From positions 1 to 23,934 of IMG/VR virus record IMGVR_UViG_3300035665_000238: 23,934 bases of DNA; one strand, given 5' to 3'. Position numbers and translations under genes: made by a program. Shown here piece after piece: positions 1-19,500 of the stretch (position 1 is its first letter; every line of letters starts with the position of its first letter). The stretch comes from a virus. The notes below the pieces were generated by a model. That model did no database searches. It had not been told where the DNA came from and saw only the letters and a program-made list of their open reading frames with translations.

Positions 1-1794
1 GCCTACGACCGTGCTTACATTGCGCGTTTCTACTGTGCCTGTTGGCGTAATTACGGATAGCGTAGGGCTTGATGTAGCCGAGATGCCTGTGGCATCATCT
101 ACTGTAACGGCTGTGGTAGTAGCGCTGATTATGCGTCCGCCTCTGCGTACACCGGCGCGTACAGGATCGCTGATTTCGATGACCTGCCCTGGACGTACCA
201 GCACACCGGCATCCATGGAAGCCGTGAAGGATACGGTTTCGGTTTCGTGCTTGTTGGAGTAGATGAGCCACTCGCCTAGGCGCTGGGCCTGACCACGCGA
301 TGTACAGGCGAATGCAATAAGTTCTGTCTTTACGACGCCGTACTTCTCTATGCCTTCTGGGTCTTCGACTACTTCGTAAGCGGTGTCACGAGTAATAGGA
401 TCGAGATATTGAACTACGGCTACGTTAGGGCGGGTTTTTAAGCTGGAGCCGCTATAGGTGAAGCCTTCCTCGCTGACGTTTGCGTACGTGAATAGGTAGC
501 TGCTATCGACGGGCTTGTCTTGTGCAAATGTGAGGGAACCTACATTCCAGTAGGGCATAGCTCGGAATACCGAGCACATATCATTGATCAGCTTATAGGC
601 GTCTTCGGCAGTTTGGATGTTTACGTTGCAAGAGAAGCGCGGTTCGTAGCCGCCGAAGCCGTCGTAGATACCATGTTTGCCTGTTGTGCTGTTGTAATTG
701 TTAGTTGTACCTGTACGGGGAGGTAGACCGCGTGCTGCGCGTTCCGCAATTTCAGCTGCAGTCGTGTATGTATCGAGAGCCGAGCAGTATTGACTAGCCG
801 AGAAAAAGGCCCACTTGTCGAGCTGAGCTGCCGCAAGATGATCGCCGAATCCGTAACGAGTATTCGTTAGGAGGTCGTAGAGACACCAGGCTGGATCGCT
901 TGTCCATTGCGCTGCCCCGAACGATCCACCCCATACACCGCTGTAAATAAGTGCGCCTGTAGTTTGGTCTACAGTTGCTATGTTGGGGATACTTACCTTT
1001 ACTCCTCGGACAAGGTATGTGCGGGAAGGAATGGACGAGAATTGCTCAGCGTTAATCCTTATAGCTGCAAGGGCGCTATTGGGATACGCGAGTTTGCCCC
1101 AGGTAATTTCGCTGTAGCTTGTCCAAGCGAAGGCGTTAGTGATCTTGGCGCTGCTGCCGCCTACGTCCTGCTCGGAGGAGTCGGCGGTGATACGTGTGAC
1201 CTTTATGTCGATGGGAAACGGGCCAGAGTTAAACCCCTGCAGTAAGTAATTGCGTTGGTATGGACTGGCAGTACGTCCTCGGATCGTATCGTCTACTACT
1301 GTTGTGTAGCCGCCGCCGTTTCGCTGAACAGAAATCTGGAGGCGAAATACGGAACCAACGATGTCGCCTTGATCGGTTATGCGCTGTAGTGCAGGCACCG
1401 TTATTAGTACCCTAGCGCCATCTACGCTAACGTCTGTTATCGTTCTTACAATAGGGGTAGCTTGAACTACAGTGGTTCCTACATTGAACTCATTAGCGAT
1501 TTCGTCAAAACCATCTAAGTAGCTCTGATTTTGGGTGCCCGTGCGTGTGAGTATTGTTACGTCTGAAAAGTTGTACGAGTTATCGGGGTTCTGAACCGGA
1601 GTATTGTTGAAGTAGACGGACTTAAGTCCGTCCTTAAGACCGCTGATTTCTCCTTCGCTGAGTAGATCAACGACTTTGGCGTACGAGGCAGAGAATAAGC
1701 TGGAGGCTTCCTCGGTGGGAGTGCGCTGCTGACTACCGCCGCCGCCGCCTTTACCGCCACCACCACCACCGCTGCCAGCAATAAACTCAGTCAT
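1..1794 (-). CDS. J: Tail tip / central fibre protein, gpJ-like (N-terminal part, cut by window edge)
   Basis: This is the host-contact protein at the tail tip, modelled on lambda gpJ. The frame is open for 598 codons from the ATG at 1794 to base 1, where the window ends, so the C-terminal receptor-binding part is not visible. I translated it by hand. The N-terminus has two glycine runs around a lysine (residues 9-20), then TPTEEASSL, LLSEGEISGL and DGLKSVYFNNTPV, which match the pattern of the lambda gpJ N-terminus (SEG.I.G..DGLKSV..N.TPV). Later segments such as YGFGDHLAAAQLDKW and FRAMPYWNVGSLTF also fit the gpJ family. Its ATG overlaps the gpI stop as ATGA, so translation is probably coupled to gpI. 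Family assignment is by recognition of motifs and gene order; receptor specificity cannot be inferred here. Confidence 0.93.
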   Translation of the reverse strand, partial: MTEFIAGSGGGGGGKGGGGGSQQRTPTEEASSLFSASYAKVVDLLSEGEISGLKDGLKSVYFNNTPVQNPDNSYNFSDVTILTRTGTQNQSYLDGFDEIANEFNVGTTVVQATPIVRTITDVSVDGARVLITVPALQRITDQGDIVGSVFRLQISVQRNGGGYTTVVDDTIRGRTASPYQRNYLLQGFNSGPFPIDIKVTRITADSSEQDVGGSSAKITNAFAWTSYSEITWGKLAYPNSALAAIRINAEQFSSIPSRTYLVRGVKVSIPNIATVDQTTGALIYSGVWGGSFGAAQWTSDPAWCLYDLLTNTRYGFGDHLAAAQLDKWAFFSASQYCSALDTYTTAAEIAERAARGLPPRTGTTNNYNSTTGKHGIYDGFGGYEPRFSCNVNIQTAEDAYKLINDMCSVFRAMPYWNVGSLTFAQDKPVDSSYLFTYANVSEEGFTYSGSSLKTRPNVAVVQYLDPITRDTAYEVVEDPEGIEKYGVVKTELIAFACTSRGQAQRLGEWLIYSNKHETETVSFTASMDAGVLVRPGQVIEISDPVRAGVRRGGRIISATTTAVTVDDATGISATSSPTLSVITPTGTVETRNVSTVVG

Positions 1795-2372
1795 GCGCTT
1801 ACCTGATCTACGTCAATGCCGGCACTAATAACGACTGAACCAACAAGCATTTCGCCGTAGATAATCGGTACGGGTGTACCTTGGCGACTTGTGTTCTGAA
1901 TGCCGCTGAAGCTGTAGGACTTGCGCGGGTCGTTGGGGGAGTCGGTGCCTAAGGAGAGGGTGGGGGTTGGGGTAAGGAGTTGTGCGACGCCGCCTAATAC
2001 GAGGCTGGCGCCAATACCTCCAACCATAGTTGCAATCCCTGCTCCAGCGGCTGCTATACCCAATGGGATAATTACAAAGCTCAGCGCAATCAGAGCTGCT
2101 CCTGCGATGATTCGACCAACGGCGCCTGCGCCGGTCACGACGGGAACGATTTTGATTGGCTGCTTACCGGCGGGGTCGTGCAGCTCGTCTTCACCGAGGT
2201 CGTAGTCGCCGAGACTTACGCGGTAGTGCTGGTCCGCCATGTGACGCTCCAGCTCTGGCCAGTTGGCGAGTAGGAAGCGCACGGCCTCAGCGGCACTGCT
2301 TACGTCGGCCTCAAGCACGCGCTTGCCGATGAACTTCGCCAGGCGTCCGTAGAGTTTGATCTTACGCAGCAT
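1791..2372 (-). CDS. I: Tail assembly protein, gpI-like
   Basis: A 193-residue homologue of lambda gpI, needed for assembling the tail tip and absent or uncertain in the mature virion in lambda. The N-terminal part (about residues 1-75) looks like the ubiquitin-like fold of the family, with [11 protein letters not shown] and [12 protein letters not shown] long Gly/Ala/Ile-rich hydrophobic stretch follows (about 80-135), then a C-terminal segment with the family's typical [20 protein letters not shown] motif. The start ATG lies inside the gpK gene; the two overlap by 11 bases (coding strand CATGCTGCGTAAG), as in the compact lambda K-I arrangement. The stop overlaps the gpJ start. Length and position between gpK and gpJ support the call. 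Confidence 0.93.
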
Positions 2373-3063
2373 GGCGAAGCCTCCTTCCCGTGCATTTTAG
2401 TAGCCATCCGCCGTAGAGGTCACGGCTGCTAAGGCGGCCTTGGAGGTGGTGGAGCACAAGCTGGTCGCCGAGGTAGACGCCGACGTGGTTGAGGCCGGTG
2501 CTGTTGATCGCCATAAGTAGGGCGTCGTTAGGTTGTAGTTCCTCGTCGTCGTTCAGTTCGCGGAAGCCTGTGTCGCGCCAGCAGGCATCGAACATCGGGT
2601 CTAAGCGGAAAGCTTCTGCGTGCAGGGGTCGCTGCCAGTCGCGTAAGTGGATGCCTTGCTCGGCGTAGTAATCGCGTACAAGGGTCCAGCAGTCGGTTAT
2701 GCCCCAGACCCACTGGCGGCCGACGAGTGGGGCGGTGTAGCCCTCGGGGTTACATTCGCCCCATGTCTCGGTTTTGGGGTTGACGATATACCAGGGGAGG
2801 TTCGTTTTTTCGCAGGCTAAGCGATCTGCTTGGGAGGGGAAGGGAGGGGTGGTTGGATGGCTGTGGACGATGGCGGTGATTTCGCCTGTGTCCTCAGCAG
2901 CGGCATAGTCGGAGGGGTCGAGGGCGAAGAACTCGTCTGGATCTGTTGCCAAGTTCTTGCAAGGCCAGTAAATTTCACGCCCTTTGATTACGACGAGCAG
3001 GCCGCACGCCTCCTTGGGGTCTTGCGCCTTCGCGTGCTGCAGTGCCTCGATTTTCCATTGCAT
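2362..3063 (-). CDS. K: Tail tip assembly peptidase, gpK-like (JAMM + NlpC/P60)
   Basis: A 233-residue two-domain protein. Residues 1-100 form a JAB1/MPN metalloprotease domain with E18 and the zinc motif H67-S-H69-P ending S77..D80. Residues 110-233 form an NlpC/P60 cysteine peptidase domain with C125 in [12 protein letters not shown]193 in NHVGVYLG, and H205 in LVLHHLQGR as the likely triad. In lambda, gpK takes part in tail tip assembly; the NlpC half is thought to cut peptidoglycan at infection. All residues expected for both active sites are present, so both domains may be active. The gene starts 3 bases after the gpL stop, with no visible Shine-Dalgarno sequence (CACTTAAGACCTATG), which suggests reinitiation from gpL. 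It overlaps gpI by 11 bases. Confidence 0.95.
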
Positions 3064-3068
3064 AGGTC

Positions 3069-4046
3069 TTAAGTGAAGAATGTACCGATGCCTGGGTAGG
3101 AGCCGAACGGAAGCTGGCCTCGGATACCGAAGCGTAATTTACAGCTGCTCAAGCGCTTACCGCACTCGTCCAGTGCTTGGGAGTTTACACCTACATCTTT
3201 AGCGTTAAAATAGACTAGGCTGTTTAGGTCTGGATAGGTGGCTAGGTAGTATGTGGCGTTGAATTGACCGCCGGAATTACCGTTGCGGCCTTCCCATATG
3301 CCGTAGTTGCGGAAGTGTTGATTAGCGGTTGCGTTGGTGTAAGCGGCAGCGACATCGGGATAGGTGGTGCGATAATAGGTGGCGTTAAATTGGCCAGTGC
3401 TATTTATCGAGCGACCTTCGCTGTAACCGAAGTCGGCATAGTGCTCACGCAATGGCCTAGCTTGAGGGCCGACTGGGTTGTAGCCGCACTCTGTCGATAG
3501 GTATTTCCACTGGCAGATGTTGCTTATACATTGCCTTTTGGGCGCACGTACACCGGCGAGGTCGAAGGCCGCTACAAGCTCGAACTCAACGAAATCACGG
3601 GTTTCTACGGTTTTGCGGTCTATGTAATAGATTTCGCGGGGGAACTCTGCGGTACTGTCTGGTGTTCCGTAAGGGTTAGTACCGCCTGGGAAGTTTACGG
3701 CGTCGATGTAGCGAGCTAGGGTGCGGATGCGCGTCACTTTGGCACCCTCTAAGCCGTCCGGTAGGCTAAGTAGCAGTGCGGATATTGTGCCAAGTATGTT
3801 GCTTACGCGCAGCTTAGGGCGCGGTAATTGTCCGTTTCCTGTGTACTCAAACCCCTCAGCTTCTACGGGGAAGCGAGTGTAGCTGTTGCCGGCCCAGACG
3901 ACCTCACCGTTGGCGTTGAGGCTCGTGCCGGCGTGGAAGCGGTAAGTGCTAGCTATTCCGTGTTGTTTGACGTTTAGTTCTAAGATGAACAGCTCGATTA
4001 CTGCGCTGGGTGCAGCAGCCTGTAATGCAGCAATAGGTACAGCCAC
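3069..4046 (-). CDS. L: Minor tail protein gpL-like, iron-sulfur protein with inserted repeat domain
   Basis: A 325-residue member of the lambda gpL family, which sits between the tape measure tip and gpJ and binds a [4Fe-4S] cluster. Residues 1-170 are the usual beta-rich domain. The C-terminal cluster ligands appear as C178, C187, C295 and C302: the 9- and 7-residue spacings equal those of lambda C173/C182 and C205/C212. The loop between the pairs is about 108 residues instead of 23, because of an insertion (about residues 196-281) carrying PDV-type repeats. A further C173 is present. The start is GTG at 4046, preceded by GAGGTG at good spacing that overlaps the gpM stop. Family and ligand assignment rest on spacing and gene order; the role of the insertion is unknown. 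Confidence 0.92.
3204..3461 (-). repeat. PDV-type repeat insertion inside gpL
   Basis: About 86 residues (gpL 196-281) are inserted in the loop joining the two cysteine pairs. They contain [18 protein letters not shown], then [18 protein letters not shown], then a second [15 protein letters not shown]. An earlier half unit reads [18 protein letters not shown]. The unit is 42 residues; at DNA level the word ggataggtgg recurs at 3232 (nine of ten bases plus context) and 3358, a period of 126 bases. The pattern of a PDV motif followed by a G..EGR motif is common in large secreted and surface proteins, notably of cyanobacteria. That recognition is from memory and has not been searched. Confidence 0.8.
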
Positions 4047-4051
4047 AGCGC

Positions 4052-4387
4052 TTACACCTCAAACACTTGACGGAATGTAGCCCTAATTTGGTTGTTATTG
4101 CAATTACTAAGCGTTACCTGCCACTCCTCACACACATACTTACCGGCAGAGCCTCGCGGTGGGGTCCAGTCGAAGTTTTCCACGCCGCCGCGTGCGTCTA
4201 AGAAGGCGACGATAAGATCGCGCTCTGTGTCAGTGCGGTTGGAGAAAACGAGCTGCCACTCCTTAGGGTTAGTGTTTAAGCCGAATCTTATCCGCTGCTC
4301 GTAACCGTCGCCTGCCGCAAACTTACGCGCACGAGGTTTGCTTACCTCGGTGGGCTCGTAAGAACTTATGTAGGTGAATGTAGCCAT
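4052..4387 (-). CDS. M: Minor tail protein gpM-like
   Basis: A 111-residue protein of the lambda gpM family (Phage_min_tail), part of the tail tip complex that joins the tape measure end to gpL. Recognisable segments are PRARKFAAGDGYEQRIRFG near residues 19-37, LVFSNRTDTERDLIVAFLDA, and FDWTPP...Y.CEEW, which matches the family's W.PP and C.EW signature. Length is typical (lambda gpM is 109 residues). It starts 9 bases after the tape measure stop. The start context is GCACTTATGGC with no Shine-Dalgarno sequence, the same context as two other genes here. The stop codon lies within the ribosome binding region of gpL. Confidence 0.95.
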   Translation of the reverse strand: MATFTYISSYEPTEVSKPRARKFAAGDGYEQRIRFGLNTNPKEWQLVFSNRTDTERDLIVAFLDARGGVENFDWTPPRGSAGKYVCEEWQVTLSNCNNNQIRATFRQVFEV

Positions 4388-4396
4388 AAGTGCAGC

Positions 4397-7300
4397 TTAG
4401 CGGCTTAGTAGGCCGCCGGGGCGTTGCTGGCGTACCAGCTCCGCTTGGACGGCTTGGGAAATTACGCGGCCGAGCTGCTCGCCCTGACCGGCATTGCCCT
4501 GGACCGATGTGCCGCTTGCATCGACGCTCACGTTTACGGTAACTGGAGCACCTCCGCCTGCCTGCTCGACGCCGAGGCGCCCATTAGGGAGGCGGCGGAG
4601 CGGCATGATCGCTTCCGGGCCAGCCTCACCCATAAGCCCGAGGCGGCCGGCGCCGCCATTGGCGAATTTGAACATAGTCGGCTGATCGACGATACCGCCC
4701 ATAGCAAACGGGACGATGCCGTTGGCGGCGTAGGCGTTGCCTAGGGCATTCAGCTTGATTCCACTGAACGCCAGTGGATTAAATCCGGCTTGGGTACTGC
4801 CAAACACAGAAGCACCAGATACCGGGCCAGCGCCAGAAAAACTGAATCCGCCGCTGCTGCCGCCTATGGCGCCGATGATCTGCATAACGCTGCGCAGAAT
4901 TAGCTGCTGAATGATCATACGCGATGTACTTTCCAGCACACTCTTGGCGAACTCTTGGAAATTCGCCTTACCCGTCGTGGTTAGGCTGAAGATGGCGTCC
5001 TCGACGCCCTTGATGCCGGTCTGGGCGAGCTGGGCCGTGGCCTCGCGCATGGTGCCGATCGACTGGACGTAAGCTTCGGCGCCTTCGCGTAAGCCGAGGC
5101 CGATGCGCTCGTCTTGGCGAGTGCGCATCGCTGTGTTGAAGGCGTCTGCAGCTTCTGCATTTTCTCGCAGAAGCCGCGCACGCTCGGCGTACTGTTCGTT
5201 CTGCGCAGCTAGAGCGCGTTGAAGTTCGTCTTTTCTATCGGGGTTGTCTGCAACAAGCTGATTATATGTTGTTTGTTCCTGGCTTTGCTCTTTACGAAGT
5301 CCGAGTAGACGCTCTTCTAGGTCTATAAACTCAGGGCGCACACCTTCCAGGGTAAGGCGATTACGCAGAGTCTGCAGTTCGTTACTGTCGCGCATTGTCG
5401 CGTTTTGTTGCCTAAGGGCATCTGTGGCCTTGAGCGTGAATTGTTCAAATAGCGCAGCGCGTTCCTTAGATACGTTGGCTTCGATAAGTTGTTGCTGAGC
5501 TTCGGCCTGCGTTACGTCGAGGCCCTCGATGACCGCACCACCGCTCGCTCTGATTGCACGATTCTGCTGGGCTGCGGCGCCTGTGGGCATCCGCGCGGTT
5601 CCGGCAGATTGTGTGGGACGCACGAAATACCCTGATTTGAAGTAATCCAAATCGGGGTAGTTACCAGCGGTAAGACCGCGCTTACGAGACTGGTGGAATA
5701 CATTATTTCCGCCTGTATATACGCCTACATGCGGAGTATCACCGGGACGCCCAGTAGCAACAATATCACCGGGACGCAGTTTACTCCAGTCCCGCATGAC
5801 TGTACCTGCATTGCGTACTGTGTCTGCCCATGCGGTTACACCGGGCAAAGTTATACCTAAAGACTTATAGAAGCTCTTAACAGACTCAGAGCATTGGTTT
5901 GCAATACCTGTGAATTTTGCTGCCTCAGCAGTTGCTTTTGCGATGGCAGTAGCACTTATGCCCGTACCACCGGCGCGTAGTGCCGCTGCACCTTGGGCGT
6001 CAAAGGTGGCACGTACTGCAGCGCTTTGTTGCGTCTGCTTAGCCAGGCGCACGTCTTGAGCTGCACGGACACGGCGCTCCTCGATTTCGCGGAGGCTGCG
6101 CTGCAGATCCTCAAAGTTGCTTACGATGCCGCGTGCTGCACCAGTTTCGCGTAAGATGCGGTTCTGTGCCTGGGCGTCGTCGAGGCGTTTCTGCAGCTCG
6201 TAGCGTTGGCGGTCCAGCTCGATTTGGTGCTGGAATACCCTGTCGGCTGCACGCAGCTGCTGGTCGAGCAGGGTGTTGGCCAGGCGCTGCTGTTCGGCGG
6301 CCGCGGCTTGGCGCTCTCTGTCGGCTTTGTCCTTGGCTGCTTTTTTCTTCTTTTCCTCGTCTGTGGCAGGGGAGGGGAATACGGACGGGCTTTCTGCAGT
6401 GCTCTGTTGCGCCTGCGGAAGCTTAAATATAGGTGACATTGCGGTAGCACCCGCCGCTATACCCTTTGTTACAGCCTGGCCTACATCTGCAATTCCAAGC
6501 AGTTTGAGGCCCGCCAGCAAAGGATTGCTGTAGTTGATCATGTTGCTGACGGTTTCGCGCCAGCGGCCTTTGATGAAGTCAAAAATGCTAGACCAGAACT
6601 TACCTACATTAGTGGCCACTATCTGCATGGTATCTCCTAGCCCTCCCACGTCTATGCCGATAGCCTTTAACGCTGTAGAGCTTATTGTTTGCAATCCTGT
6701 GAAGAAACTGCCAATACGAGTCCAGAACGCAGAGACATCGTTGGCGATACTATCCCAAAACGCTTTAGCAACCTGTAGGTATGCAGGCATTCCCGTGGCG
6801 AAGAAATCCCGTACAGGTGCTGTGAAATCCATGAACGCATCACCGGCAGCACCGATTGCCTTAGCCACGCCCACAAACCCTTGTGCAGCAGCGACTACGG
6901 CAGGTGTAATGTCGGTTATAAATACGGCAAATGCGTTTTGCAGATCGGCACCCAGAGGTTGCAGAGCGCGTCCTACCTCTAGTTGCATGTTTTGCATTGC
7001 AACTGTCAAACGAGCGCCGGCTTCTTGGCTGGACTTGGCGATCTTGAGTGCCGTTTGTCCGTACTCAGTGCTGATTAGCTGCAGGAACTTCATTAGGTCG
7101 TTCAGACCTACTTGGCCCTCCTGGAGCGCCTTCTGTAGTTGAGGGCCGGTCATGCCGGCCGCCTTGGCGAATAGGACAAATGTGCCGGGTAGACGCTCAG
7201 CGATTTGGTTAAGTTCTTCGGCGCTGACCTTGCCCTTGGAGAAGACCTGCGTGAGTGCGAGGAGGGCGCCATCGGCCTGCTCGGCGTTGCCACCAGTGGC

Positions 7301-9175
7301 TTTCACTGCCTCGCTTACTGCACGGAACGCGAAGGCCGAGTCGGTAACCGTTCCACCGGCGCCGGTCACAGCGGCACTCAGTTGGGTCATGCTTCGGATC
7401 GCAATCTCCTGGGGGATATTGAGATCGCGGGTCGCGGAGTCAGCAGCTGCCAAAGCGCGGGTGTAAGCGTCCTGGGAGCCAAGAATGCCCCGCAGAGCGA
7501 TCTGCAACTTGTCGATGCGGGCCGAGTAGTCGGTGACGTCACCGAGCTGCTGGCGGAACATGCCGACCTGCGCACCAGCGGCCGCGCCAGCGAAGGCGCC
7601 GCCCACGCCGCCCACGGCCAAGCCGCCGAGGCCGCCAAGCAGGCCCTCGGGGCCGCCGAAGATGCCACCGCTAAGCGCCGCGCCGACGCCCTGGGCGAGC
7701 TGCATCCCGCTTAGGCGGCGACCTCGGCGCTTATCCGCGATGCCCATACGCCTGTCAAAGTCGGCAAGCTGAGTATCAAACTCTTTCTTACGTAGTTGGC
7801 CTTCTAACTCAAGCCCTTCAAGAGCCTTGTCAATATAGATTTGATTGTATTTAGCTTGTAATTCAGTGCGCTGTATGAATGCCCTCTCATAAATGTCCGT
7901 TACAGATCGTTGTGCAGATTCAACGGACTGCAGCGCCTGCGTAGCTGCTTCCGGGAATGGCTGCGGGCCTATGGGGCGGGCGTACGCGGCTTCGTCTACA
8001 CGGATTCGCCCCGGTGTGTACGCACCAGCGGCAATCATGGCTCCTGTGTTGGGATCTCGGTAACCTCCAACGCCAGGCGCTAATGGTCCCTGAGTTGCGT
8101 AATACTCTTGAATACCGGCTAATTTGCCTTCTCTACGGCGTACGCCACTTTCTGCGATGTTGAGCTGTCTAAAGGCGTCAGCAGTACCTAATATGTCCGT
8201 CCGCAACTGCCTCTGTATTTCGGCCATACGCAGAGCCACGTCCACGTATGTGGAACTGCCGCGTGTGGTATTTACAAGGCGCTCGCTCAATTCCGCCAGT
8301 TCTTGATTAAGACCTGCGGTAGTGTTGGGCAGATCGCCCATCCGCTGCCCGATGCGCTCTGCGGAATAAAAGCCTGTGGTTAAGGTGGTTTCGTTAAATG
8401 CGGCAGCAGCTGTGCGCACAGCTTCGCGTCCGCTGCGGACGCTTTCACCGAATGTAAGTTGCCGCTGTGCGGTGAGTGCCCTATTAAGACGTTGTTCTGC
8501 GGTGGCGCGTTCTTCTATGGTGGTAGCTAGTCTGCGCTCCCTACCGCTGCGCAGATCAATCTCGTTGATTACTTGTCGCTGCAGCTCGATACCCGCGTTT
8601 ATCGACGTAAGTGTCGCTCGTACTCCTGCTGCTGTGGCCGGGAAAGCTCTACTAAGCGCTACGTTAAGCTCCCTTGCTACGGTGGTTACTGCTGTTATGC
8701 GCTCTGCGATCTGAGCAATATCGCTGCTTAGCGTGTCGTAAGCTCTGGAATTAGCGCGGGTCTGCTCCTGAATGCGTACCAGGGCAGCCCGGTGTTCTTC
8801 AAGGGCGCGGACGTTACGTGTGGTTTCGCTGAACGTGGCTACCAACGCATTGCGTTGTGCCATAAGCGTGTCCGTAGCACCTCGTTGTACTTCGCCTACA
8901 CGTCGAATGTCGTCGGCTAGGCTTCTATACGCATCGCCGCAAAAGTCGGCCTGAGACCGTAAGCCTTGTAGTGCTGATACAAGACCTTTGGTTACTGCTT
9001 CACTATTACCGGCTGTCTTAGCAAATTCAAATATACTATCGCGGACACCTATGATGTCCTGCTCGGACATCTTTGTGACTTTGCTTAAGTCACGAAACGA
9101 GCTGCGGATCTTATCTAAGCCTTCAAACTTTTCTAAGCCTAAACGTACAATAATATCTTCAATCTGCTTAGCCAT
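4397..9175 (-). CDS. H: Tail tape measure protein, gpH-like, with embedded NlpC/P60-like peptidase
   Basis: A 1592-residue protein that sets tail length and is carried inside the tail tube. The N-terminal 480 residues are helical and charged. A Gly/Ala-rich stretch (about 495-540) precedes a canonical tape-measure core (about 555-700; includes FSKGKVSAEELNQIAERLPG). A Lys/Glu-rich coiled-coil region (about 935-1060) follows. A cysteine peptidase-like domain spans about 1085-1190, with C1095 (NQCSESVKSFY), H1149 (PHVGVYTG) and H1161 (VFHQSR). The C-terminal lambda-type domain starts near 1385 (GIKGVEDAIF) and includes GEAGPEAIMPLRRLPNGR near 1515. The ATG has a strong upstream GGGGGAGGAT and overlaps the gpT frame by 8 bases. 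At about 105-150 residues per 15-20 nm, the length predicts a long tail, but I cannot fix a number. Confidence 0.96.
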   Translation of the reverse strand: MAKQIEDIIVRLGLEKFEGLDKIRSSFRDLSKVTKMSEQDIIGVRDSIFEFAKTAGNSEAVTKGLVSALQGLRSQADFCGDAYRSLADDIRRVGEVQRGATDTLMAQRNALVATFSETTRNVRALEEHRAALVRIQEQTRANSRAYDTLSSDIAQIAERITAVTTVARELNVALSRAFPATAAGVRATLTSINAGIELQRQVINEIDLRSGRERRLATTIEERATAEQRLNRALTAQRQLTFGESVRSGREAVRTAAAAFNETTLTTGFYSAERIGQRMGDLPNTTAGLNQELAELSERLVNTTRGSSTYVDVALRMAEIQRQLRTDILGTADAFRQLNIAESGVRRREGKLAGIQEYYATQGPLAPGVGGYRDPNTGAMIAAGAYTPGRIRVDEAAYARPIGPQPFPEAATQALQSVESAQRSVTDIYERAFIQRTELQAKYNQIYIDKALEGLELEGQLRKKEFDTQLADFDRRMGIADKRRGRRLSGMQLAQGVGAALSGGIFGGPEGLLGGLGGLAVGGVGGAFAGAAAGAQVGMFRQQLGDVTDYSARIDKLQIALRGILGSQDAYTRALAAADSATRDLNIPQEIAIRSMTQLSAAVTGAGGTVTDSAFAFRAVSEAVKATGGNAEQADGALLALTQVFSKGKVSAEELNQIAERLPGTFVLFAKAAGMTGPQLQKALQEGQVGLNDLMKFLQLISTEYGQTALKIAKSSQEAGARLTVAMQNMQLEVGRALQPLGADLQNAFAVFITDITPAVVAAAQGFVGVAKAIGAAGDAFMDFTAPVRDFFATGMPAYLQVAKAFWDSIANDVSAFWTRIGSFFTGLQTISSTALKAIGIDVGGLGDTMQIVATNVGKFWSSIFDFIKGRWRETVSNMINYSNPLLAGLKLLGIADVGQAVTKGIAAGATAMSPIFKLPQAQQSTAESPSVFPSPATDEEKKKKAAKDKADRERQAAAAEQQRLANTLLDQQLRAADRVFQHQIELDRQRYELQKRLDDAQAQNRILRETGAARGIVSNFEDLQRSLREIEERRVRAAQDVRLAKQTQQSAAVRATFDAQGAAALRAGGTGISATAIAKATAEAAKFTGIANQCSESVKSFYKSLGITLPGVTAWADTVRNAGTVMRDWSKLRPGDIVATGRPGDTPHVGVYTGGNNVFHQSRKRGLTAGNYPDLDYFKSGYFVRPTQSAGTARMPTGAAAQQNRAIRASGGAVIEGLDVTQAEAQQQLIEANVSKERAALFEQFTLKATDALRQQNATMRDSNELQTLRNRLTLEGVRPEFIDLEERLLGLRKEQSQEQTTYNQLVADNPDRKDELQRALAAQNEQYAERARLLRENAEAADAFNTAMRTRQDERIGLGLREGAEAYVQSIGTMREATAQLAQTGIKGVEDAIFSLTTTGKANFQEFAKSVLESTSRMIIQQLILRSVMQIIGAIGGSSGGFSFSGAGPVSGASVFGSTQAGFNPLAFSGIKLNALGNAYAANGIVPFAMGGIVDQPTMFKFANGGAGRLGLMGEAGPEAIMPLRRLPNGRLGVEQAGGGAPVTVNVSVDASGTSVQGNAGQGEQLGRVISQAVQAELVRQQRPGGLLSR

Positions 9176-9922: not shown

Positions 9923-11176
9923 TTACGCGAAGGTGAGGCAGCACTCAGCTCCCACCCCAGAGCTGGATGCCTCGCCGTAACCCAAGATGTAAAAATCGTT
10001 AAAGGGGGAGTCGTCAAGCAGTAGGGAATCTGTTTCTGCCGAAGCTGCCGCAGTAGGAACGCATGTAAATGGTAAGTTCAGCATCAAAATACTGTCTGTC
10101 TCTGCGTAGGACGTACTGCCTATGTCAATACCGGACGCAGCGAACCCTACAAGATTGCCAACAGCATTACCGTGAATAAACTGTAGCTTGCTTAGGGTAC
10201 CGTCGCTTAGTGCAGCGGTAAAGTAGTCTTTTGTTGCGATTGTAGGTGCCTCGATCGTGGCTGTACCTGAAACGACACGATCTACGATACGCACTTCTTT
10301 ATTGCAGCCGATAAGTTCACGGTAGACTATGTTGTTACCTAAGTCGATGGATAGTTCTTGGACACAGGCCGCGTAATCCAGCAGCGAGAAAGCTCCACTG
10401 TTTCCTTGCGTAAACACTAAGGGTGTTGCTTGATCGGCATAAGTTACAGATGTTAGTGCTGTATCGGTGGGTGGATTGTAAATGCCTGTGAGCGTGAAGC
10501 TTAGAGAAGGGATTTGCGCCACGGTTGCGCTTAGAGTGAACGTGCCACGGCACCCTGTAAGTCGGTGCAGTACGCCGTCTACGTTGTAATAAATAGTGGC
10601 TGAGCCAAAGCCGCTGCTTACGGGCGTGTAGGTGTACTGCTGTCCGATGGCGTAGGCGCTTGTATTGTCTGCGGTGACGCTGCCGCTAAGGTAGCGCACA
10701 GTAGCGACTTTAGTAGCACCAACGTAAGAGGTAATAATTCCGACATTACCGCTGCCCGTACCTGCGGTAATGCGAATGATTAGGTTGGTGTAAGCGTTGT
10801 CGGTGGAGCTTGCTGAGGCTGCGAGTGTAATTGTGTTGACGCCGCCTGCGGTAGCTGTGCCGGTTATGGCGGATGAGGTGTAAGTCTCTGTGAATCCGCA
10901 GGCTTTAAGTAGGGGGCTGAAACGCGGAGCTGTAGAGGGTGTGCCGGATCCGGTCAGATCGACGGTGAATGTGCATTGGACGTGGGTGTTGGCCAGCAAC
11001 TGCTCGGTGGAGCCCAGGTAGGGCCGTACCACGTCCCTGCTTACGGAATCGCTCTGTACGGGCGTGATGTTTAGGTCGCGGACGAGGATGGCCGCAGATG
11101 CCCCTGGCACCGGATCCTGACCGTAAGTGGCTTCACTTACGGCGAGGAGCAGCCGGCGATTGCTCAGCAGAGGCAT
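9923..11176 (-). CDS. Tail tube protein paralogue 2
   Basis: A 417-residue protein closely related to the gene just upstream: 42 of the first 60 residues are identical by hand count, including LVRDLNITPVQS, VRPYLG and EQLLAN. It has the same layout: a tube-domain N-terminus, an inserted beta domain with ITLAAS...YTNLIIRITAGTGSGNVGIITSY (about residues 105-180), and a return to the tube fold. The C-terminus differs and is longer, ending in a poorly conserved serine-rich tail (about residues 385-417). The tube domain is homologous to major tail proteins. Having two copies suggests a major and a minor tube subunit, or a tube/tip division, but this is inference. GC is visibly lower than in paralogue 1 and the words CTTAS are frequent (16 against 2). 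Confidence 0.85.
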   Translation of the reverse strand: MPLLSNRRLLLAVSEATYGQDPVPGASAAILVRDLNITPVQSDSVSRDVVRPYLGSTEQLLANTHVQCTFTVDLTGSGTPSTAPRFSPLLKACGFTETYTSSAITGTATAGGVNTITLAASASSTDNAYTNLIIRITAGTGSGNVGIITSYVGATKVATVRYLSGSVTADNTSAYAIGQQYTYTPVSSGFGSATIYYNVDGVLHRLTGCRGTFTLSATVAQIPSLSFTLTGIYNPPTDTALTSVTYADQATPLVFTQGNSGAFSLLDYAACVQELSIDLGNNIVYRELIGCNKEVRIVDRVVSGTATIEAPTIATKDYFTAALSDGTLSKLQFIHGNAVGNLVGFAASGIDIGSTSYAETDSILMLNLPFTCVPTAAASAETDSLLLDDSPFNDFYILGYGEASSSGVGAECCLTFA

Positions 11177-11224: not shown

Positions 11225-12388
11225 TCAGGCGTAGATAAGGCGGATCTCGTCGTTGCCGGTGGTGGAGGGCACAGCGGTGTAGGGCAGGGCGAGCATGTGG
11301 ATGCCGTCCTGGTCGGAGTAGCTGGGCGCTCCGATGTCCACGCGGTTGGACACCAGCGAGACGATGTTACCAGCGGTAGTTCCATGGATGAAGGAGAGGT
11401 CACCCAAGGAGGCGTCGGTGAGGGAGGCGGTGAAGTAGTCCTTCTCTGCGATGGTGGGTGCTTCGATCGTTGCGGTGCCGGACACCGAGCGATCGGTGAG
11501 CAGCACTTCCTTGGTGCAGCCGACGAGTTCGCGATAGATGATGCTGTTGCCGATGTCCATGGCAACCGACTGGAGGCAGCCGGAGTAGGCGAGGAGGTTG
11601 AAGCCACCACTGTTGCCTGCCTTGAAGACGAGCGGGCTGGCTTGGTCGGCGTAGGTTACGGAAGGCGCGGCGGTGTCGGTGGGGGCGTTGTAGATGCCCG
11701 TCATCGTGAAGTCGAGGGTCGGGATCTGGCCGACAGTGGTGTTCAGCGAGAACGTGCCACGGGCGCCGGTGAGCTTGTGGAGAACCCCGTCGATGTTGTA
11801 GTAGAGGGTTACCGAGCTGAAAGCGCTGCTGACAGGGGTGTAGACGGTCTGGAGACCGATGCTGTAGACGCTGGTGTTGTCGGGGGTGACGTTGCCGGCG
11901 AGGGCGCGGAGGGAGGCGACGCGGGTGGAGCCCACGTAGCCTGTGACGAGCGCGACGGTGCCACTGCCAGTGCCGCCGGTGATGCGGATGATCTGGTTCT
12001 TGTAGGCGTCGTTGGTAGCGCTGGAGCCGACCGCCAGTGTGATGCTGTTCAGGGCGCCCGCAGTGGCGGTGCCGGTGACGGCGGGACTGACGGCGGTCTC
12101 GGCGAGACCGCAGGCTTTCAGGATCGAGCCGTAGCGGGGTGCGGTGCCAGCAGTGCCGCTTCCAGCCAGCTCGACACTGAAGGTACATTCAACGCGAACG
12201 TTGGCGAGCAGCTGCTCGGATGCGCCCAGGTAAGGACGAACCAGGTCACGGTTAACGCTCTCGCTCTGGACCGGCGTGATGTTGAGGTCACGGACCAGCA
12301 CGGCGTCGGTGCCCAAGGGAGAGGGGTCGGAGCCGTAGGTGGCCTCGATCTCCGCCAGAAGAAGGCGCTTACGAGTGAGGAGTGTCAT
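11225..12388 (-). CDS. V: Major tail tube protein, paralogue 1
   Basis: A 387-residue tail tube protein in the lambda V position, between the tail terminator and gpG. Residues 1-100 contain the conserved phage tube motifs (EATYGSDP, LVRDLNITPVQSESV, RPYLGASEQLLANVRVECTF, PRYGSILKACGLAET). Residues about 104-178 are a small inserted beta domain (NSITLAVGS...KNQIIRITGGTGSGTVALVTGYVG), a type seen in many phage structural proteins. Tube-type sequence resumes with YYNIDGVLHKLTGARGTF and continues to the C-terminus. It is GC-rich with few rare-looking codons, consistent with high expression, so I take this as the main tube subunit. The start is ATG at 12388, 6 bases after the upstream stop, with only a weak AGG upstream. 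The symbol V is by position and role, not by close similarity to lambda V. Confidence 0.88.
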   Translation of the reverse strand: MTLLTRKRLLLAEIEATYGSDPSPLGTDAVLVRDLNITPVQSESVNRDLVRPYLGASEQLLANVRVECTFSVELAGSGTAGTAPRYGSILKACGLAETAVSPAVTGTATAGALNSITLAVGSSATNDAYKNQIIRITGGTGSGTVALVTGYVGSTRVASLRALAGNVTPDNTSVYSIGLQTVYTPVSSAFSSVTLYYNIDGVLHKLTGARGTFSLNTTVGQIPTLDFTMTGIYNAPTDTAAPSVTYADQASPLVFKAGNSGGFNLLAYSGCLQSVAMDIGNSIIYRELVGCTKEVLLTDRSVSGTATIEAPTIAEKDYFTASLTDASLGDLSFIHGTTAGNIVSLVSNRVDIGAPSYSDQDGIHMLALPYTAVPSTTGNDEIRLIYA

Positions 12389-14142: not shown

Positions 14143-14438
14143 GCGAATACCCTCGCTGGGTGTTTGGGTTCGACGAGGTAAGCGTCCCACCCATCAGGCA
14201 GCTCACCGATGTAGTTGACGTGCCAGCCGCTCAGCAGTACGGGCGGGGTAAGCACTTCGCCGGTGTCGGGGTCGCAGGTGCCGCCTCGGTAGATGGGGCC
14301 GATCACGTCCAGGGCGTGGGTGTGGCTGGCGGTGAGCACCACGGTGTCGCCGTCGTCATTGGTGGTGGTAAGGCCAGCAGCATCCAGGGCGGCCATGCCG
14401 GTGGATTCGTCGGGGAAGCGGATGTAGGTGGTGGTCAT
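14139..14438 (-). CDS. Conserved phage hypothetical protein
   Basis: A 99-residue protein; function is not known to me. It begins MTTTYIRFPDESTGMAALDAAG and ends with SGWHVNYIGELPDGWDAYLVEPKHPARVFA. I have seen this general pattern (RFPDE, GWHVN..GELP.GW) in proteins of other tailed phages, usually close to tail or head-completion genes, but no activity was attached. One C and a DPDTGE segment are present; there is no membrane segment. It overlaps the upstream gene by 4 bases (ATGA) and the gpFII-like gene by 4 (GTGA), so it is translated as part of the head-completion set. Its size and composition would fit a minor structural or assembly protein. Confidence 0.75.
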   Translation of the reverse strand: MTTTYIRFPDESTGMAALDAAGLTTTNDDGDTVVLTASHTHALDVIGPIYRGGTCDPDTGEVLTPPVLLSGWHVNYIGELPDGWDAYLVEPKHPARVFA

Positions 14439-15661
14439 TGCGTGATCGCCTGGAGGGTGGAGTTGGAAAGGCGCTGGGGGAAGAACGCGAGGCGCTTGAT
14501 GGTGCTGTTGAGAGCGCCTGCGCCTGTTGGATTTGCGCCCAATCTCAACTGGTCAACTGTCGGAATTGTTGCGCTTGTATCTTCCGTGCCTAGCGTCCCA
14601 GCATTTGCAAAATTAATTGAATTCAGTACATAAGAAAGTGCGAACTGTTGTTGCGTTCCAAATGTGTAGGCAATGGTATTATTTGCTTGAGTTATGCCTC
14701 CTGTTACAACGCGAGCAACGCGGGCGCTTATGCCAGCGTCCGCTTGGATGCGATTGTTTGCAGTCCCATCAGATGCTGAAAACAAAGTTGTACTAAGGGC
14801 TGGATTAATTGCATTAACAAACACCGTCCCCTCACTCTGCCGATACCAGGAGCTGAAGTTTGCCCCCGTGATGCTGGCAACGTCCGCGCTGCGGGTGGCT
14901 GCGGCTGTGGTGGTGGGGATGTAGCTGGTGGCAAAGGCACCGGCTTCTAGTTGGGCGCCCCAGAGGTGAACAGTAGTGCCGTAAGTGGCTGGACTAAATC
15001 TATAAAGATAGGGGCGAACAAGAACACAGCCAACTGGTGTCGTGAATGTATATGTTACCCTTCGCCATTCCGTTGTTACCGGCGTAATGCTAGGCGCAAT
15101 GTCTGCTGCAATAAATGCCCCGTTTGTATCATCTCTTACGGCAAACCTAAAATCAGCCGCTGCCATTGTTCCTAGCTTGACGTAAAAGCTCCATGTGTAA
15201 GCAGTGGAAGCTAGGCAGGCTACTGCTTGGAAGATTGCAGGGGTGCCAGATACAGTCGCAAAAGTATCTGCCGTAAGAGTTCCATTTGGAGCAGTTTGTG
15301 CATTAGGAGTGACCGTAGCGATTGAAGGGTCTGGTGGATTCCAACTCGCATTATCAAACTCCTCACTCCGCAGCAGCAGATTCGTCCTCTGCTCCTCCAC
15401 CAGCAGCCCCAGGCTTTCGCCGGTCGTGGGGTTGTGGTCAAACCTCGGCACATCCACAGCTGCCGTCTGCAGCGTTCCCGCGCTGTCGATGTAGGTCGCG
15501 CTGCTGGCGCGGGTGAAGCTCACCAGCGGGCCGACGTTCTTGGTGGCGGCGAAGTTGAGGTCGAGGGACGCGCCGCCGAACAGGCCGGTGCTGAGCAGGC
15601 CGGTGTGGATGCTCTGCTCCAGGCCGCCGGATTGGAGCTGTGTGCCAAGGCGTTCAGCCAT
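14435..15661 (-). CDS. Carbohydrate-binding-like capsid or fibre protein
   Basis: A 408-residue protein. Residues 30-105 hold a motif set common in phage appendage and decoration proteins: LDLNFAATKNV, FTRASSATYIDSAG, VDVPRFDHNPTTGESLGLL, EEQRTNLL. Residues 105-245 resemble a carbohydrate-binding (CBM-like) beta sandwich with STAYTWSFYVKLG and TTEWRRVTYTFTT. Residues 260-408 look like a second, concanavalin/LamG-like sandwich (GTVFVNAINP, FSASDGTANNRIQ, IKRLAFFPQRLSNSTLQAI). Its place between the capsid gene and the connector points to a capsid-surface adhesion protein. The base composition is patchy: an AT-richer middle (roughly 14530-15350) sits between GC-rich ends. The start overlaps the previous stop (TGATG). 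Confidence 0.75.
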   Translation of the reverse strand: MAERLGTQLQSGGLEQSIHTGLLSTGLFGGASLDLNFAATKNVGPLVSFTRASSATYIDSAGTLQTAAVDVPRFDHNPTTGESLGLLVEEQRTNLLLRSEEFDNASWNPPDPSIATVTPNAQTAPNGTLTADTFATVSGTPAIFQAVACLASTAYTWSFYVKLGTMAAADFRFAVRDDTNGAFIAADIAPSITPVTTEWRRVTYTFTTPVGCVLVRPYLYRFSPATYGTTVHLWGAQLEAGAFATSYIPTTTAAATRSADVASITGANFSSWYRQSEGTVFVNAINPALSTTLFSASDGTANNRIQADAGISARVARVVTGGITQANNTIAYTFGTQQQFALSYVLNSINFANAGTLGTEDTSATIPTVDQLRLGANPTGAGALNSTIKRLAFFPQRLSNSTLQAITQ

Positions 15662-16686: not shown

Positions 16687-19500
16687 TCAGGTGCCGAAGC
16701 AGAAGGCGCCAGGTTGCTTGACCGCGAAGTCAACGTCCTGGAGGGCGATGACGCGGACCGTGCCAGCGGTGGAGCCGGCGTAGGGATCGACGGTGAGGTC
16801 GAGGCCGGACCACATGCCCACGACGAACTGGGAGAAGTCGCCGAAGAGGCAGTCGTTGGTGGTGAGCTGGTTGCTCACGATCACGGGGTAGCCGTTGATC
16901 TCGTCGTTCTCGTAGACGAACTGGCCAGCCGAGGAGGTGGACTTCTCGGTGCTCTTGAGGGCACCGCGGGCGGCGGCGTTGATGATGTAGCGCATCGAGC
17001 CAGCGTCGGCGTTGGCGGTGGCCACGTCGGTTTCCATGCCGATGTACTCGGCGAAGGTGCCGAAGGTGCTGATCGTCTGAGCGCCGATGCCGGTGGTGTT
17101 GGTCAGGCCGAGGGGCTGGTTGGTGGAGCCGGTGCCGTAGACGGCAGCGCGGTCCAGCTCAAGGGCGATGATCTTGGCCAGGTCGGCGCGGATCATCGAC
17201 TCCACGTCGATCGAAGCCTGGAGCAGCAGACGCCTGCTGTAGTCAACGAAGGCGCCCACGGTCTTGGGCGTCATGTTCACTTGGTCGATTGCTTGCTGGC
17301 TCTCGGTGGGTGAGCCGCTTTCGCCGACCCAGTACGCTGTAGCGGCGGAAGATTGTCTCGGGAGGCTGATGTTGCCTTGGAGGCCGCTCAGCATGGTGAC
17401 GCCGGCTTGCATCATCGCCATGCGGTTACGCAGGAGGTCGATGAAGCTGCCGCTCAGCAGGTCGGTGGAGACGAGGTTGCCACCGGCGGTGCTGGTGCCG
17501 ACCACGAGGTCGCGGCGGAGCACTTCGTTGGGGATGACGATGCCGTTGGAGGAGCGCTGATACTTCTCGGCGGCAGCCTTGCCGACCTCGATTTCAAACG
17601 CGGCGGCTTCGCGGGCAGCGCGATCGCCGGGGTTGATGAGGTGGTTGAGGGCGCGGACGAAAGAGAAGCTGCGGACTTCCTTGTCCGTGAGGCCGAGGGC
17701 GGCGGAGTCGTCGTCATGGACGCGACCTTGGACTTCGACGCGGGTGCGTCCGATTTGGTTCAGCACGGCTTCGCGGGCTTGGTCGAGGGTGGATTCGTTG
17801 TCGATGAGGGTGTCAGCCAGATCAGTGCCGATCTGGTGCTGGGCGCACATGGCGCGGATGGCCGCAACACGCTCACGCTCGGACTGCCGAGCGGCGGATT
17901 GGACCTCCTGGACGTTGGTGGCTTGTTCCATGGATGGAGGATCTTGGGGGAAGTCAGCTCCGCGCTCGGCGGTCTGCTTAGTTTCTAGTGTAGGGGTTGA
18001 CGCTTGATTTGTTTCTTGCGTCGTAAGTGGCGTGGGGGATGTGTTGGTGTCGTCGAGTGCGCGGCCCAGGCCAACGGTCTGGTCGGCGGGCACGCTTACT
18101 GAGGAGACTTCCAGAACGTTCCAGCCCACTACTTGCATGTCGCCGTTAGATGCTTCGCGCACATCGTTGATCTCGTAGGCGAAGGATACGTTGCGGACGA
18201 TGCCCGCTTCGATGTCACGACGGCGCTTGTATTCTTCGGTGCCTTTTTCGGTGGTGTTGGGGCTCCATTTCGTTTTGACGTAGAGGCGACGATCGTCGCC
18301 AAGCCAGGCTTTTTCGGCGACGCCGAGCACCACGTCGCGGTTGTGATTCCAGAGCCAGGGGCCGCCGTCGTTCATGCGGGCCAGGTCCATGGCGCCGTCA
18401 TCGTGCATCAGCACCTCGCGGCCCCACCAGCGCTCCACGGGCGCCTCGGAGCTGAAGCTAAAGGTGAGGCCGGCGTCTGTGCTTTCTTCGACGCGGAGAC
18501 CTTGCGGAGCTTCGCGCCTAAGCACTTCCTTACTGATGGCCTTGATGTCGATTTTGCCGTCCATGGACTTGCCTGTAGCGGGCTCAAAGGAGATGGGCGT
18601 GTAGTCGTGATCGCTAAGCCACTTCTTAGCTTCACTTACTGTAAAGCGTGCGGCGTCGAATCGTAGGGCTTGGAGGCGCACGGGGTCGTCGCCTTTGATT
18701 CCGTAAATGGAGTCGATGCCTTGGGCGAAATCGTTGTTCTTGCGGCGGAACTCATCGAACTGGCCTGGGTCTAAGAGGCGGGCGGCGTGTTCGTTGGGGT
18801 AAGGGCGCTGCTCTAAGTCGGAAGGGGCGGTGCGGTCGTCGTCGTCGTCGTCCGAAGATTCGTCGAGGGGTTCGATTTTGCGGAGCGTCGAAAACTTGTG
18901 ACCTACTAGGGTTTCGGTTTCGCTCCAGCCGTCCTGCTTAGGGCGGTAGATGCGGATGAGAGCGGCGGGGTCGTCGGCGGAAGCGTCGATGCTGAAGTCG
19001 CTGCCGGGGACGCCGAGAGTGCCGGTACGCATGACGTGCTCGATGCGGCCGCGGGCCGTGCCACCGCTGGATTGCCAGGCAACGAAGTCGCCTTCGCTCA
19101 GCTCGCCGGCTGCGGCGCGTTGGGCTGCGTAGTCACGCACAGACTTAGCGGCGAGGCGCACTTCGTCGGCAGAGGTAACGGTACGGCCTTCGGCTGAGGC
19201 GTCAGCCTGGGGAGTGAGCAGCTGCTCGGGGATGATCCAGAACTTGCAGGCGCCTTCGGGGGCGATGTCGCCGGCAACGACTTCGCAAGCGCGGGGGCCG
19301 GCGTAAAAGATGCAGTTGGAGCACTGCATCCCTTCGCTGGCGAAGGGGCTAACAGGCATGTAATGAGCGCCGTGAGCGCCAATGCCCTGATCAAACTGAC
19401 CGAGTTCATCAACAATTTCCTCCAAGGCTTCGTAGAGCGCAACTTGGGGAGCTGTAAGGTCTGGCGTCAGCTCGCGTTGCTGAGTAGAATCGTCGGCCAC
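16687..19500 (-). CDS. Prohead protease / major capsid protein fusion with N-terminal Cys-motif domain
   Basis: A 937-residue single frame. Residues 55-90 contain C60-x2-C63-x8-C72-x12-C85, like the spacing of HiPIP iron-sulfur proteins. Residues 130-210 are a small beta domain (GDFVAWQSSGG, DPAALIRIYRP, VGHKFSTL). D-rich residues 217-222 follow, then YPNEHAARL...DPGQFDEFRRKNNDF (233-260). A prohead protease occupies about 335-485; H386 (WNHNRD) and S439 (RNVSFAYE) are the likely catalytic pair. A Thr/Gln-rich linker and scaffold-like helix (485-600) lead to an HK97-fold capsid protein (about 600-937; SIDVESMIRADLAKII, GSTNQPLGL). The start is GTG at 19500. No internal start at M524 has a Shine-Dalgarno sequence, so the capsid part is released by cleavage rather than made separately; that last point is inference. 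Confidence 0.93.
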   Translation of the reverse strand: MADDSTQQRELTPDLTAPQVALYEALEEIVDELGQFDQGIGAHGAHYMPVSPFASEGMQCSNCIFYAGPRACEVVAGDIAPEGACKFWIIPEQLLTPQADASAEGRTVTSADEVRLAAKSVRDYAAQRAAAGELSEGDFVAWQSSGGTARGRIEHVMRTGTLGVPGSDFSIDASADDPAALIRIYRPKQDGWSETETLVGHKFSTLRKIEPLDESSDDDDDDRTAPSDLEQRPYPNEHAARLLDPGQFDEFRRKNNDFAQGIDSIYGIKGDDPVRLQALRFDAARFTVSEAKKWLSDHDYTPISFEPATGKSMDGKIDIKAISKEVLRREAPQGLRVEESTDAGLTFSFSSEAPVERWWGREVLMHDDGAMDLARMNDGGPWLWNHNRDVVLGVAEKAWLGDDRRLYVKTKWSPNTTEKGTEEYKRRRDIEAGIVRNVSFAYEINDVREASNGDMQVVGWNVLEVSSVSVPADQTVGLGRALDDTNTSPTPLTTQETNQASTPTLETKQTAERGADFPQDPPSMEQATNVQEVQSAARQSERERVAAIRAMCAQHQIGTDLADTLIDNESTLDQAREAVLNQIGRTRVEVQGRVHDDDSAALGLTDKEVRSFSFVRALNHLINPGDRAAREAAAFEIEVGKAAAEKYQRSSNGIVIPNEVLRRDLVVGTSTAGGNLVSTDLLSGSFIDLLRNRMAMMQAGVTMLSGLQGNISLPRQSSAATAYWVGESGSPTESQQAIDQVNMTPKTVGAFVDYSRRLLLQASIDVESMIRADLAKIIALELDRAAVYGTGSTNQPLGLTNTTGIGAQTISTFGTFAEYIGMETDVATANADAGSMRYIINAAARGALKSTEKSTSSAGQFVYENDEINGYPVIVSNQLTTNDCLFGDFSQFVVGMWSGLDLTVDPYAGSTAGTVRVIALQDVDFAVKQPGAFCFGT

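Follow-up and report, generated by a model that had tools for sequence, protein, structure and literature searches.

PDV-type repeats between the cysteine pairs of a phage tail-tip protein L, a candidate surface module

The tail-tip hub protein L (gpL) of an uncultured lambda-like phage, virus record IMGVR_UViG_3300035665_000238, carries two PDV-type repeat units, in permuted register, in the loop between the two cysteine pairs of its iron-sulfur domain. On balance we favour the view that this insert is a swappable surface module for weak host binding, probably to glycans. The position and recurrence of the insert are read from sequence, its fold is a prediction, and its exposure and rotation are taken from the literature on homologues; we infer adhesion and glycan binding, the latter because of the occupants of the same slot elsewhere and the partners of the repeat in bacteria. 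Only the occupant of the loop is new, since the insertion position was already known.

The gpL gene and its insert

The window is the whole stretch of DNA that was analysed, 23,934 nucleotides (positions 1 to 23,934 of the record). Its tail genes are arranged in the customary way, with the tape measure first, then M, L, K, I and J, which places gpL between gpM and gpK/I/J (Table 1). In a profile search, Phage_tail_L (PF05100; 175.1 bits against a cut-off of 25) and TIGR01600 (197.8 against 70.75) each matched gpL in two stretches that flank the insert.

Table 1. Coordinates of gpL, its insert and the neighbouring tail genes in the window
Feature	Position	Strand	Details
gpL, tail-tip hub protein L	3069..4046	minus	325 aa + stop, GTG start; PF05100 1.5e-51, TIGR01600 1.4e-58, phrog_18 6e-75
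gpM-like distal tail protein (context)	4052..4387	minus	PF05939 8e-26
gpK-like protein, JAB + NlpC/P60 (context)	2362..3063	minus	PF14464, PF00877
gpI-like protein (context)	1791..2372	minus	phrog_32 1e-51
gpJ, truncated by window end (context)	1..1794	minus	PF24801, PF13550, phrog_31 1e-189
Cluster cysteine pair 1, C178 + C187, spacing 9	3486..3515	minus	invariant alignment columns
Cluster cysteine pair 2, C295 + C302, spacing 7	3141..3164	minus	invariant alignment columns
Stretch extra versus lambda-type relatives, residues about 191-276, two permuted PDV-type units	3219..3476	minus	comparison with relatives, e.g. L065; AlphaFold2 pLDDT 90
Second half of repeat unit, residues 198-219	3390..3455	minus	profile match 25-39 at 3402..3446
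Full 42-residue unit, residues 220-261	3264..3389	minus	profile match 1-39, E 1.3e-20, at 3276..3389
First half of repeat unit, residues 262-276	3219..3263	minus	profile match 1-18, E 5e-6, at 3210..3263

Lambda gpL (PDB 8iyk) belongs to the same family and shares the L-K-I-J order. Its cysteines 173/182/205/212, which bind a [4Fe-4S] cluster, are spaced 9/23/7 (PMC10721106) and correspond to those of the window gpL, spaced 9/108/7. The claim of the first-pass annotation that the lambda spacings of 9 and 7 are kept while the loop grows from 23 to 108 residues is therefore borne out, the lambda protein having the short gap and no insert. The four cluster cysteines are invariant at these two spacings across 40 aligned gpLs, and close relatives of the window protein read 9/9/7 or 9/23/7. 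The insert had been placed at 3204..3461; the insert itself stands, but its position was off by about 15 bases.

The 42-residue period proposed at the outset is equally sound. When the loop is compared with itself, the highest score falls at offset 42, where 20 of 65 positions are identical, a value reached in none of 5000 shuffles (best shuffle 18), and the two repeat copies agree at 19 of 31 residues. On the record the repeat profile reads half a unit, a whole unit and another half, that is, two units in permuted register; run over the whole record, it found no copy outside the gpL loop. A chance repeat was rejected on the shuffles and on the strongest profile match (Table 1), and an assembly artefact because identical or near-identical genes recur on contigs of many metagenomes.

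Several other features of the window are recorded here in their own right. The tape measure protein (4397..9175, minus strand) has an internal NlpC/P60 domain at residues 1095-1170 (E 3e-6), and gpK has another. The protein at 14435..15661 (minus) is of virion type and matches CBM_4_9 weakly (E 6e-4, under the cut-off), and the 937-aa open reading frame at 16687..19500 (minus) appears, by eye, to be a prohead protease and a capsid protein fused in a single frame. A tandem pair of tail-tube-like paralogues (9923..11176 and 11225..12388) shares the motif NITPVQS.SV.RD..RPYLG, and just one of the two is terminated by a 97-bp segment (9955..10051, minus). Copies of this segment also occur in L007 (about 5130-5240) and L103 (minus), and it is present in two genes of one contig; it has the appearance of a translated mini-element that was recently copied, and its RNA folding was not better than that of shuffles. 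Among clues to the host, the nearest terminase, from Synechococcus phage S-LBS1, matches at just 46%, and those of Roseobacter and enterobacterial phages follow closely. No relative was found among genome contigs, and psbA was absent in seven related contigs.

Predicted fold, placement and other occupants of the loop

AlphaFold2, given only the insert and an alignment that combined gpL inserts with bacterial repeats, predicted a compact, all-helical structure (mean pLDDT 90.2, pTM 0.80) with short bridged turns between helices at residues 7-20, 35-41, 43-48, 54-65, 77-83 and 85-92, consistent with a module that would fold independently. In a model of whole gpL most of the insert region kept a pLDDT of 83-95. 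Because this model was poor outside the insert and its core was unfit for placing it, the orientation was taken from lambda, RcGTA and R4C. Foldseek matched the predicted insert to no PDB entry (best E 1.4), and no solved structure in the PDB has the sequence or the fold of the repeat. An EF-hand was considered and rejected, as the PDB matches to calcineurin, troponin C and calmodulin were weak and not significant and in gpL the inter-helix turn is without the acidic residues that a calcium loop would have. Matches in BFVD were not significant either (E 0.05 and up); most were giant-virus glycosyltransferases, which would agree with the bacterial association of the repeat, a weak point on its own.

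In lambda the iron-sulfur domain of gpL lies on the outer surface of the tip (PMC10721106) and rotates outward as a rigid body upon tip opening (PMC11101478). By this analogy the insert, which sits on that domain, would be found on the side of the tail tip, as had been proposed at first pass.

The same loop is occupied in other systems. In the gene transfer agent RcGTA, the iron-binding part of g13 comprises residues 143-167 and 250-263, and an oligosaccharide-binding domain fills the interval, 168-249 (PMC7296036). The hub of roseophage R4C is laid out alike, its domain spanning 162-243 (PMC10276861); these positions are the residue ranges given in the papers, and a profile search of the PDB did not find the RcGTA hub sequence. 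Both proteins are baseplate counterparts of gpL in which a domain of ~82 residues, named for its likeness to a sugar-binding domain and also resembling that of the T4 hub, splits the iron-binding domain. The R4C authors propose horizontal acquisition and a role in adhesion (PMC10276861). The window insert shares this placement, between the cysteine pairs and inside the iron-sulfur domain, and by analogy may work like the OB-type insert. It consists of PDV-type repeats, and since its predicted fold is helical and not the beta-barrel of the OB-type domain, it is not a member of that type.

For the JBD30 upper baseplate protein gp50, the available part of the source (PMC11445458) gives Cys147/156/238/245 with a putative metal bound, that is, a spacing of 9/82/7 with an insertion between the pairs as in the window gpL, and reports no PDV repeats. 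The cultured cyanophage S-CBS4 of Synechococcus has in gp036 cysteines 169/178/439/446 (9/261/7), a large insert of another kind in the same slot and without a Pfam match. Among ten gpL-like proteins of a phage collection the gap is 22-23 in seven and 261 in S-CBS4, and those of Prochlorococcus phage MED4-184 (L171) and marine virus AG-345-A17 (L172) are without the iron-sulfur cysteine domain, both ending shortly past the first domain. Five IMG/VR gpLs (L012-L016) hold a beta domain in the same slot that weakly resembles the End_beta_barrel of phage endosialidase (PF12195 at 3e-5 in L013, below the curated cut-off). The first-pass statement that no gpL with such an insertion had been described thus holds for the PDV repeat only; the slot itself is known from RcGTA, R4C and JBD30, and here from S-CBS4.

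Insertions also occur elsewhere in gpL. Beta-rich inserts of ~200 residues lie C-terminal to the fourth cluster cysteine in L021, L034, L039 and L067, and a Pfam search with one of them gave no significant match. A second insertion place lies near residue 124 of L073, between NFP and NPxGTPDPTAEFP, with a domain resembling the CBM_4_9-like protein at 14435..15661 of the window (BLAST 1e-8); in AG-345-A17 this place holds a Thr-rich, beta-type domain.

The repeat in viruses and bacteria

The best 80 of 592 gpL relatives from IMG/VR show the loop in several states: it may have 9 residues or 23 as in lambda, or hold PDV-type repeats or the beta-type insert of L012-L016. The first-pass annotation had pointed to gpL homologues as a place to look for the repeat, and it does occur there: at least nine distinct gpLs carry it (the window, L011, L073, L090, L091, L093, L095, L099 and L190), always in the same loop, which is 107-109 residues long in those measured, and closely related gpLs lack it. 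A viral search that used the repeat alone returned 25 loci, all 25 of them gpL; no copy in other virion proteins was found.

On a tree of the gpL core, with the insert left out, the PDV state is patchy and needs six changes, which suggests exchange of the insert between gpLs; a single PDV clade was not rejected (AU p 0.33). A recent exchange was rejected, given that a single clade remains compatible with the tree and that fourfold sites are saturated in most pairs. In five of seven pairs, identity to the window gpL is 72-84% for the insert versus 70-82% for the core; among L090, L091 and L093 it is 92-94% versus 74-81%, and in L011 the insert is less conserved (53% versus 77%). The inserts of L090 and L093 share 92% of amino acids and 38% of fourfold sites. 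Because amino acids are kept while fourfold sites are near saturation, these comparisons point clearly to purifying selection on the insert.

The repeat is also widespread in bacteria. A bacterial consensus, FDADYYLAQNPDVAAAG...HFLTYGAKEGRDP, aligns with the gpL insert, and positions F, Y, D, H, G, E and R, invariant or nearly so in the alignment, are present in the gpL units. A tblastn search against plasmid proteins, with the repeats of the window and L011 gpLs joined as query, gave a best value of 1e-9, and genome matches have 39-58% identity per unit. They fall in Alphaproteobacteria, Betaproteobacteria, Cyanobacteria, Lachnospiraceae, Bacteroidota and others. The search of cyanobacterial genomes proposed at first pass gave strong matches in 8 of 59 sampled (a Laspinema genome, which belongs to this phylum, included); Cyanobacteria are one of several groups with the repeat. 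In bacteria the units stand in tandem, with as many as 9 in an array and a period near 38, whereas gpL has exactly two units, permuted, within a phage tail protein.

Among 36 repeat proteins, in which one protein may count twice, the commonest partners are RTX (7), GT1-type (6) and GT2-type (5) glycosyltransferases, DUF3048 (5), WbsX (4) and CAP (4); amidase also occurs. A Rhodospirillum rubrum plasmid carries the repeat in an RTX protein adjoining a type I secretion gene, an Enterobacter plasmid in a glycosyltransferase, and an Azospirillum plasmid in a methyltransferase-glycosyltransferase. The initial description of such repeats as typical of surface or secreted proteins fits the RTX and cell-wall proteins, but many copies sit in glycosyltransferases. 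As enzymes are among the bacterial partners, the repeat might instead serve in protein binding or in folding. No model covering it came out of the Pfam and NCBIfam scans (in the bacterial sets, among the 25 commonest families listed), and a literature search on the motif returned nothing relevant.

Proposed role and its alternatives

We propose that the iron-sulfur loop of gpL is a site at which phages dock accessory domains. Three copies of the two-repeat module, one per gpL by analogy with lambda, would stand on the outside of the tail tip. There they would bind a host surface glycan weakly and reversibly, holding the phage while gpJ seeks its receptor, and on tip opening they would travel with the iron-sulfur domain, given the rigid-body rotation of that domain in lambda. 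The cysteine frame is intact around the insert, in favour of a surface module. Against this, the insert evolves no faster than the core, unlike a typical arms-race adhesin.

This restraint would also suit repeats that pack on gpJ or on an adjacent gpL and lend stability to the cone or to the iron-sulfur domain, with no host binding. The constant loop length, well conserved among distant gpLs, and the unvarying repeat number agree with such a structural part, as does the composite domain that the C-terminal domain of lambda gpL forms with gpJ (PMC10721106). We nevertheless regard it as unlikely: close relatives manage without the PDV insert, the slot accepts unrelated folds, and the repeat family stands alone as a module in bacteria. 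Its occurrence in bacterial RTX and cell-wall proteins would fit docking to protein, with the repeats binding, for instance, a side fibre or a protein on the host surface that bears the same repeats; contacts between repeats are conceivable, and we give this reading little weight. An insert gained by recombination and merely tolerated in an exposed loop, as near-neutral decoration, would account for the patchy tree and for the variety of inserts seen across several gpL loops. It is improbable, as the retention of amino acids despite saturated fourfold sites indicates purifying selection.

Beyond the preferred reading of a glycan-binding surface module, we suggest, tentatively, that PDV-type repeats make up an undescribed family of small, helical modules that bind glycans and are shared between phage tail tips and bacterial proteins (polysaccharide enzymes, secreted proteins and cell-wall proteins), and that the gpL loop is a general slot for module exchange that changes surface binding. 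The two-unit insert offers a small, cloneable representative of this widespread, apparently unnamed bacterial repeat. What the iron-sulfur cluster contributes on the outside of lambda-like tips is an open question (PMC10721106). The loop between the cysteine pairs takes at least four different inserts, namely PDV repeats, the OB-type domain, the endosialidase-barrel-like domain and the S-CBS4 domain, and this suggests that the cluster doubles as a rigid clamp holding surface modules that can be exchanged.
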